A DNA stretch of 64,000 bases from positions 62,001 to 126,000 of the forward strand of contig NZ_FNUS01000005.1 in the NCBI RefSeq assembly GCF_900108025.1. The letters are read 5' to 3'. The translations under genes were made by a program, and so were the position numbers. This DNA is from Halpernia humi (GTDB taxonomy: Bacteria; Bacteroidota; Bacteroidia; Flavobacteriales; Weeksellaceae). Positions 34,626 to 54,499 of the stretch are shown here, piece by piece. Position 1 is the stretch's first letter. Each line of letters begins with the position of its first letter. Under the pieces are notes generated by a model. It was not told the origin of the DNA. It was given only the letters and a program-made list of their open reading frames with translations, and ran no database searches.

Positions 34626-34638
34626 GGAAGTAAATTCC
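34626..34638. promoter_or_regulatory. Repressor operator-like dyad O-left
   Basis: GGAAGTAAATTCC fits GGAA-N5-TTCC, as do the dyads at 35555, 35586 and 47409. It lies directly left of three tandem 12-bp repeats near the left end of the prophage. Confidence 0.55.
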
Positions 34639-34640
34639 TA

Positions 34641-34674
34641 TTGGATTAACACTTGGATTAACACTTGGATTAAC
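34641..34674 (+). repeat. Three tandem copies of TTGGATTAACAC
   Basis: Copies at 34641, 34653 and 34665 (the last is cut to 10 bp). Perfect 12-bp period, just inside the left part of the prophage and next to an operator-like dyad. A role as transposase-binding sites at the left end, comparable to the L1-L3 sites of Mu, is inferred; the sequence is unrelated to those of Mu. Confidence 0.6.
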
Positions 34675-34855
34675 AAAGTGTAGTAAAATTTTAGGCTTAA
34701 TTCAATACTATTTGTTAAAATCACACCGAAAACAGCATAAAAAGCAGTTTAAATACGCCTTAATTACAATTAAAATTTTAAATAAATAATAGTTAAATTA
34801 TTATATTTCAATGTTTTAGACATTAATTAATTATTTTATATAAATAAAAGATGTG

Positions 34856-35530
34856 TTACTCTAATCTAACTGAGCCTACAACTAATGCAATATTGCGTAT
34901 ATCCGACATAGGAACCTCGAAATCATCATATTCTGAATTGTCTGATTTGCAAATGACATTTTCTTTGATGTTTGATTTTTTAAGTCTTTTCATGATGACG
35001 CCCTGACTAATAGTGTCTAAAACATATATTTTATTCCACTGCACAAAAAGTAAATCATCTACCATGCGACAAGCGACCACATCACCACTACTGTATTTTG
35101 GGTACATGGATGATCCCCGGACATTGATCATGAAATCAACCTTAATATTGTAGAAAAGTGGTACATCGTATCGCTCTTCGATCTGCGCAAAATCAACACC
35201 ATCAACATTGCTTCCTCCTGCACCTGCAAAAGCATCTAAAGGCAACAGAGGTATGCTTTTAGTTCCATAACTAGATATACTTTCAGCCACTATACCGGGA
35301 TTATCTACTTTTTCGTCATACGATTCGCTGTAGAATTTGTTATGTATTAAAGAATCTACAGAAATATTGAAAATAGATGATATTTCCATGGTTTGATTCA
35401 AAGTAGGCATTACTTTACCACGTTCAATTTTTGAATATTGGCTTGGATCCATACTTATCTTTTCCGCCAGTTCCTTCTGGCTAATATTGCGCGCTTCACG
35501 CACTTCTCGAATTCGACGTCCTATTTCCAT
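34856..35530 (-). CDS. Phage repressor (XRE helix-turn-helix plus S24 peptidase domain)
   Basis: Encodes 224 residues. N-terminal HTH (about 5-60: KELAEKISMDPSQYSKIERG). C-terminal LexA/CI-like S24 domain with the catalytic serine in VRGSSMYPKYSSGDVVA and the lysine in QGVIMKRLKK (MKRL). The usual cleavage dipeptide would lie near FAGAGG (about residues 97-102, AG/GS). Such repressors hold lysogeny and are cleaved after RecA activation. Unlike the Mu c protein, this one is lambda-like, so SOS induction is plausible. It is divergent from the early operon with two dyads between them. Confidence 0.87.
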   Translation of the reverse strand: MEIGRRIREVREARNISQKELAEKISMDPSQYSKIERGKVMPTLNQTMEISSIFNISVDSLIHNKFYSESYDEKVDNPGIVAESISSYGTKSIPLLPLDAFAGAGGSNVDGVDFAQIEERYDVPLFYNIKVDFMINVRGSSMYPKYSSGDVVACRMVDDLLFVQWNKIYVLDTISQGVIMKRLKKSNIKENVICKSDNSEYDDFEVPMSDIRNIALVVGSVRLE

Positions 35531-35554: not shown

Positions 35555-35598
35555 GGAAAATATTTCCTTTATTATTTTTTTAAATGGAATTATATTCC
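35555..35598. promoter_or_regulatory. Two repressor operator-like dyads in the divergent early region
   Basis: GGAAAATATTTCC (35555-35567, within a longer AAAGG...CCTTT palindrome) and GGAATTATATTCC (35586-35598), centres 31 bp apart, three helical turns. They lie between the leftward repressor gene and the rightward early genes, as expected for a genetic switch. Confidence 0.68.
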
Positions 35599-47397: not shown

Positions 47398-47443
47398 TTT
47401 GGCAGAATGGAATATACTTCCATATATTTGTGATTACTAATCA
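47398..47443 (+). promoter_or_regulatory. Promoter with embedded repressor-like operator and a start-site palindrome
   Basis: TTTG at 47398-47401 and TATATTTG at 47423-47430 with a 21-bp spacer form a full Bacteroidota promoter. The spacer holds GGAATATACTTCC (47409-47421), the same GGAA-N5-TTCC as the operators near the repressor. TGATTACTAATCA (47431-47443), a perfect 6-bp-arm palindrome, lies between the -7 box and the start codon. Confidence 0.7.
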
Positions 47444-47445
47444 CT

Positions 47446-47673
47446 ATGGCCAAACTTTTACAGAGAAATACTTTATTGCGTTATAGACTGATCCGGGACA
47501 TTTATGTCGTAAACAAGACAGATGATATTCCGGACACGAAGGTTTTGAAAAACTACATTTATCCTAAATATCCCATTTCTCGCGGCACATTAAATACTAT
47601 TCTTTCCACACCAATTGACAGGCTTTTAGCGGAAATGGAAACTAACAATTGTGAAGACCAAAAGAATAAATAA
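47446..47673 (+). CDS. Small regulator candidate (late activator position)
   Basis: Encodes 75 residues, basic, with a possible helix-turn-helix, IYPKYPISRGTLNTIL. It has its own promoter carrying a repressor-like operator and a palindrome, so it should be silent in the lysogen. It is the last plus-strand gene before the head cluster and its end overlaps the converging 47642-48097 gene by 32 bp. By position it could play the part of Mu Mor/C, an activator of late genes, although no sequence similarity to those is seen. Confidence 0.55.
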   Translation: MAKLLQRNTLLRYRLIRDIYVVNKTDDIPDTKVLKNYIYPKYPISRGTLNTILSTPIDRLLAEMETNNCEDQKNK

Positions 47674-48651: not shown

Positions 48652-48679
48652 TGTCAATTTAATAAAATTCGTACATTTG
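48650..48679 (+). promoter_or_regulatory. Promoter of the 48684 gene
   Basis: ATTG at 48650-48653, an 18-bp spacer and TACATTTG at 48672-48679 (exact TAnnTTTG). The start codon follows after only four bases, so the transcript would be leaderless or nearly so. Confidence 0.55.
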
Positions 48680-48683
48680 TTAA

Positions 48684-48917
48684 ATGGAAAATAGTTCCAC
48701 ATATCAAGATTTGGATCTGCAAAAAGTCTCTATGTATGACATAGCCGAAGTTTTGGCAGATAAACCTGCTCTTTTAATTAGTCCGGATGAAGACCTTTCA
48801 GACGAACAGATTAGAATTTTAGGACTTTTTTCGTATGCAGAATATTACCAAATTAAAGAACTGCAGGAAAAAATTGCAGAACTTTACAAAAAAGAATTAC
48901 TTTCGATCCAGTCGTAA
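48684..48917 (+). CDS. Small plus-strand gene inside the leftward head operon
   Basis: Encodes 77 residues, acidic and helical (VSMYDIAEVLADKPALLISP, EYYQIKELQEKIAELYKKEL). It lies between the gpG-like and gpF-like genes on the opposite strand and overlaps the 3' end of the gpF-like gene by 21 bp. It has its own -33/-7 promoter. No family is recognised. Transcription here would be antisense to the head operon message. Confidence 0.55.
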   Translation: MENSSTYQDLDLQKVSMYDIAEVLADKPALLISPDEDLSDEQIRILGLFSYAEYYQIKELQEKIAELYKKELLSIQS

Positions 48918-54332: not shown

Positions 54333-54401
54333 GCTGTTAGTTTATAGCAAAATTGCCATAATGTGAGGCTCATAAAAAAAAAGTGTTTAGTTTCTGAACA
54401 T

Positions 54402-54443
54402 AGTTGTACAGGTTCTTTACACAGTTGTTCAAGTTCTGCACAA
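54402..54443. promoter_or_regulatory. Two 21-bp tandem repeats in the divergent late control region
   Basis: AGTTGTACAGGTTCTTTACAC (54402-54422; last base beyond 20 given by position only) and a second, related copy at 54423-54443. They match at about 15 of 21 positions, and share AGTTGT-n-CA-n-GTTCT. AGTTGT and ACAACT also form an inverted pair. They lie between the leftward head operon and the rightward tail operon, and so could bind a common late activator. Confidence 0.5.
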
Positions 54444-54499
54444 CTATTTTATTCTGTGAAAATTCCTGCTGATGTTTGTGCTTTAAATCGGCAAAACAG

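Follow-up and report, generated by a model that had tools for sequence, protein, structure and literature searches.

In phage Mu the repressor c is not known to bind beyond the left-end operators, and the late activator C is reached only through the Mor cascade. C is required for the late genes (PMC4461284), and the cascade from Mor to C has been described (PMC4461284, PMC4287176). In phage P1 the C1 repressor has 22 dispersed operators and directly controls lpa, the gene for the late activator (PMC8546580). Repressor sites away from early promoters are also known in mycobacteriophages, as asymmetric stoperators that stop elongation (PMC9283540). Hankyphage, a Mu-like phage of Bacteroides, has a CI-like master repressor, RepCHP, whose silencing raises most phage genes; the available passages of that paper describe no operator or distal target (PMC12135933). 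The transposable phage fF4 of Flavobacterium columnare has a Mu-like organisation with a predicted repressor at the left, and the available part of its description holds no operator or promoter study (PMC7761591). Among the open-access papers searched, none deals with operators in Mu-like phages of Bacteroidota.

The window (the whole 64-kb stretch of DNA that was analysed) contains part of a Mu-like prophage of ~37 kb, which begins at about 34.3 kb and reaches about 71 kb, past the window end. Its host belongs to the Bacteroidota, as judged from the promoter type and from relatives in Chryseobacterium, Elizabethkingia, Epilithonimonas and Flavobacterium. The early operon carries a large gene in the transposase position, which has no Pfam match and was assigned by position and relatives, together with an AAA ATPase (AAA_22, E 7e-10). 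A leftward head block contains Portal_Mu (E 1e-69) and Phage_Mu_F (E 1e-10) genes, and a rightward late block begins at 54476. The genes for the portal, the Mu F-like head protein, the transposase and the ATPase follow the order of Mu. As in Hankyphage, a CI-like repressor lies at one end; it is an HTH protein encoded divergently from the early operon. The features of this region are as follows.

34626–34638, no strand: left-end operator GGAAGTAAATTCC, beside three TTGGATTAAC repeats.
34856–35530, minus strand: CI-like repressor (HTH_3, E 1e-14; Peptidase_S24, E 3e-10).
35555–35567, no strand: early operator 1, GGAAAATATTTCC, close to the start of the repressor gene; first of a conserved pair with 31-bp spacing.
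35586–35598, no strand: early operator 2, GGAATTATATTCC, directly adjoining TTTCTTTG, the -7-like box of the early operon.

The same GGAA-N5-TTCC dyad therefore occurs twice between the repressor and the early genes (35555 and 35586) and once near the left end (34626), as the first-pass annotation had reported. Repeated dyads between repressor and early genes are common to relatives, and the left-end operator is conserved in G004, G007, G009 and L077. A pair of these operators, spaced by 31 bp, is present in the repressor/early interval of the window prophage, L077 (with L076, C. koreense), L079, L080 and L167/L098, and in these phages the second operator abuts the early -7-like box. Their repressors share HTH_3 with near-identical recognition helices (DPSQYSKIE and variants), and differ in their C-terminal parts.

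A further copy of the dyad lies in front of a gene at the early/late boundary that encodes a 75-residue protein.

47398–47430, plus strand: promoter of the 75-aa gene, Bacteroidota-type, TTTG-N21-TATATTTG, with a -7 box conserved in relatives.
47409–47421, no strand: distal operator GGAATATACTTCC, within the promoter spacer and ending 1 bp before the -7 box.
47446–47673, plus strand: g75, the 75-aa core gene, encoding a predicted four-helix HTH-like protein; candidate late regulator.

Both the promoter and the dyad inside its spacer, described in the first-pass annotation, matched exactly at these positions. The promoter pattern alone is not significantly enriched (8 found, 6.7 expected), and the 75-aa promoter was accepted as real because it is conserved in relatives, not because of enrichment. 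The Bacteroidota promoter consensus is TTTG/TANNTTTG, with the start site 4–5 nt from the box (PMC6847099); at this distance transcription of the 75-aa gene would begin near 47435, giving a leader of ~11 nt.

The promoters upstream of the homologous gene were aligned for 13 phages, 12 of them distinct as those of L081 and L103 are identical. All eight positions of the operator arms are invariant in this alignment (8/8), amid flanks that have diverged to an average majority identity of 0.58 upstream and 0.48 downstream. The dyad is thus present before the homologous gene in 12 distinct relatives. In phages of the Chryseobacterium/Elizabethkingia type it lies immediately ahead of the -7 box, at a distance of 25–41 bp from the start codon, and in more distant phages the 75-aa gene is present without any such operator. 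The site at 47409–47421 can be classed as a dispersed operator of the P1 type, as it overlaps the promoter at 47398–47430 and is conserved; this classification refers to the site and does not extend to an activator role of the gene product. In several relatives an intrinsic terminator hairpin, read from the sequence, precedes the 75-aa promoter, indicating that the gene is a separate transcription unit there; no terminator hairpin was seen before the promoter in the window.

We consider it probable that the lysogeny repressor directly controls the 75-aa promoter through the GGAA dyad, and that the 75-aa protein is most likely a late regulator. Direct silencing of this gene by the CI-like repressor, 12 kb from the repressor's own gene, had been suggested at first pass and is the best reading, because the same dyad is found in the repressor's early operators and in the 75-aa spacers of the window and its relatives, and because the distal operator type tracks the repressor HTH. 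The sequence shows the operators, how well they are conserved, that they agree with those next to the repressor gene, and that they covary with the repressor HTH. From this we infer that the repressor binds and represses, and what the 75-aa protein does, as follows. In the lysogen, the CI-like repressor would bind GGAA-N5-TTCC at the early control region, the left end and two distal promoters. As the dyad takes up the spacer of the 75-aa promoter as far as the -7 box, RNA polymerase would be blocked by bound repressor. Once the repressor is lost, the early operon and, directly, the 75-aa gene would be freed, and the 75-aa protein would then activate late transcription in both directions from a dyad array between the divergent late operons.

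Like P1, this prophage would have a lysogeny repressor with dispersed operators and direct control of a late activator, here a presumed one, far from the repressor gene. Unlike P1, which is a plasmid prophage with operators that are called asymmetric in the title of a cited work, it is a transposable phage with few, symmetric operators, and some of its relatives have two-HTH repressors. It resembles Mu in its repressor, transposase, AAA ATPase, Mu F-like and portal proteins, and in the position of the 75-aa gene, which lies at the early/late boundary like C. It differs from Mu in that the boundary gene has its own repressor operator, and that the genome is without a PF08765 homologue. Induction could consequently release early and late control together, as opposed to the cascade of Mu, and the P1-like logic of a repressor that directly holds a late-activator gene would recur in an unrelated phage family. 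The analysis yields a short operator list and a candidate late activator for the Bacteroidota Mu-like phages, whose regulation has been little studied.

The second distal promoter lies within the leftward head gene cluster, and its operator had not been recognised as a promoter site in the first-pass annotation.

48670–48698, plus strand: second distal operator-controlled promoter, a TACATTTG box followed by GGAAAATAGTTCC at 48686–48698.
48684–48917, plus strand: g77, a 77-aa gene, antisense within the leftward head gene cluster.

The 48686 operator overlaps the start of g77. It is absent in L009–L011, and is retained in L004 and L078 despite a different downstream gene, which argues for selection on the DNA site.

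The role of the 75-aa protein was considered in relatives gathered from viral contigs, from genomes and through TerL. The gene keeps its place at the early/late junction across a family in which TerL identity falls to about 47%. It occupies this position in 48 of 80 TerL-family loci, and many of the remaining loci are too short to include it. AlphaFold2 predicted four helices with a mean pLDDT of 85 (the five models range from 59 to 85). Family searches with the protein gave no significant match, only weak HTH hits on the ISR-T-L segment, and a search of phage records gave chance matches only. Structure searches with the 75-aa and 77-aa models returned no usable match, which is not evidence of a new fold. 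Membership of the Mor/C family was rejected, as the 75-aa proteins have no PF08765 hit, and a PF08765 search of the whole genome likewise found no homologue.

The candidate target of g75 lies just before the rightward late block.

54333–54475, no strand: divergent late promoter region, holding TTGTnCAnnnnnTGnACAA dyads at intervals of 22 bp; candidate g75 target.

Close relatives usually have three such dyads, and many distant phages have variant forms with one to three. The array is not an extra repressor site, as its motif differs; lying near the prophage centre, it may possibly have a structural role instead. Synteny, the HTH-like helical prediction and the conserved late arrays together make late-gene regulation the most likely role of the 75-aa protein in this phage family, and the late regulator proposed at first pass is a plausible reading. 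It is unlikely, but to be taken seriously, that the operator is real and the 75-aa protein is instead an accessory, lysis-timing or replication protein that is silenced in the lysogen. Such a function would fit a protein without family or fold match, whose homologues outside the group sit in other settings; it fits less well with the conserved position at the early/late junction, with the HTH-like segment, and with a genome that has no Mor/C homologue (PF08765) to take the role. Some of the homologues in other settings adjoin a divergent g77 homologue (L024, L025), and others are present in two copies (L028, L029, L032).

A regulator other than the prophage repressor, of host or phage origin and sharing the GGAA site, might instead bind the 75-aa dyad. 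We compared repressor HTH content and distal operator type in the phages with a known repressor. A window-type HTH_3 repressor is accompanied by a distal GGAA operator in 7/7 phages, and the operator is found in 2/13 phages without such a repressor (one-sided P 5e-4, with classes assigned by eye and kinship ignored). In L093, the repressor consists of Phage_CI_repr and S24 without HTH_3, and at the corresponding position its 75-aa promoter has ACACATTTTGTGT, which matches the early sites ACATTTTGT and ACAAATTGT of this phage. The 75-aa protein of L093 is nearly identical to that of L092, whose promoter carries GGAA.

Three relatives with two-HTH repressors have changed early operators and retain the distal GGAA. 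L074 (Elizabethkingia miricola) and L078 have fusion repressors, in which an N-terminal Phage_CI_repr HTH is added and HTH_3 is kept. Both have early operators of an ACAA-N-TTGT type, which is clear in L074, where it recurs, and is represented by a single similar site in L078; both distal promoters, that of the 75-aa gene and the second one, keep GGAA. The two-HTH repressor of L072 is of a third kind; this phage has GGAA at its distal sites, and early sites like those of L122, the repressor of which carries a similar first HTH. The two-HTH repressors are encoded at 2509–3135 in L074, 2539–3213 in L078 and 2915–3586 in L072, with early operators of a new type adjacent. The clear exception is L073, which has a distal GGAA, early operators of another type and, as sole repressor, a divergent HTH_19 protein; this could reflect an immunity region that was recently exchanged, an operator left over as a relic, or a regulator that escaped notice.

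These comparisons support the conclusion, drawn from sequence covariation, that the type of distal operator goes with the HTH that the repressor carries, with one clear exception. Binding by another regulator could explain why L073 and L072 keep distal GGAA while their early operators are of other type. It is nevertheless quite improbable, as in five phage types the early operators agree in sequence with the distal ones, and as the L093 distal type becomes ACA-N3-TGT together with the repressor. The first early gene, a Ner/Cro-like candidate, was also considered as the setter of operator type and rejected for lack of covariation: its product is 26% identical in L080, which has the same operators, and 56% identical in L074, which has different ones. 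Control by the prophage repressor therefore remains the preferred reading. For the two-headed repressors, we give an even chance to an arrangement in which the exchanged HTH serves the early immunity switch and the older HTH is kept for the distal late-control promoters, of the 75-aa gene and at 48.7 kb. If so, immunity specificity could change while the distal lock is kept. The swapped and fused HTH domains that occur naturally in this family, with operators changed to match, offer a ready test of how immunity changes without breaking distal control.

GGAA-N5-TTCC occurs 12 times in the 64-kb window against 1.27 expected, a number reached in 0/100 shuffles, and 83 times in the genome, with 11 sites within the ~37-kb prophage against 0.86 expected. 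When spacings from 0 to 12 were compared, the prophage was enriched only at 5, with 11 sites as against 0–3 for each other spacing. A central TA is common to all promoter-located sites, giving the refined motif GGAAnnTAnTTCC, which has 17 matches in 3.12 Mb, six of them in the prophage against 0.13 expected (P about 7e-9). The remaining 11 are in the other ~3.08 Mb, so the genome scan with GGAAnnTAnTTCC did not show the many equally good sites at random positions that the first-pass annotation had named as an argument against the operator. Chance or compositional recurrence of an AT-rich palindrome, which might be suspected from the shortness of the motif and the unenriched promoter pattern, is hardly credible given an enrichment limited to spacing 5 and to the prophage, and is already refuted by the conservation of invariant arms amid diverged flanks in relatives.

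Six GGAA-N5-TTCC sites in the window are intragenic (41754, 42145, 49237, 53521, 57714 and 62232), compared with 0.6 expected in synonymous-codon shuffles (0/500). A similar intragenic excess is seen in G002, G003 and L098, and none in L093, L103, L073 and L078. These sites mostly lack the central TA, and their position is not conserved apart from conserved protein segments. Stoperators are asymmetric, oriented with transcription and located in short intergenic regions. All sites found here are symmetric, the distal ones being dyads inside promoters and the extra ones intragenic, and the intragenic sites are probably not stoperators, being symmetric, mostly without the central TA and not conserved in position beyond conserved protein segments.

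An additional palindrome had been noted at the start site of the 75-aa gene.

47430–47444, no strand: perfect 15-bp dyad GTGATTACTAATCAC, with its centre at the predicted start site; confined to a subclade.

The palindrome is exact in the window, and the second regulator or autoregulation proposed for it is unsupported. Dyads at this position are found only in the window, L004, L006 and L021, and a conserved second operator was rejected as a general feature since they are confined to this subclade. The dyads of L004, L006 and L021 are partial and differ in sequence from that of the window. At the other end of the prophage, the left-end operator is adjoined by three tandem TTGGATTAAC(AC) repeats (34642–34677), which are conserved in relatives and are possibly transposase end-binding sites.
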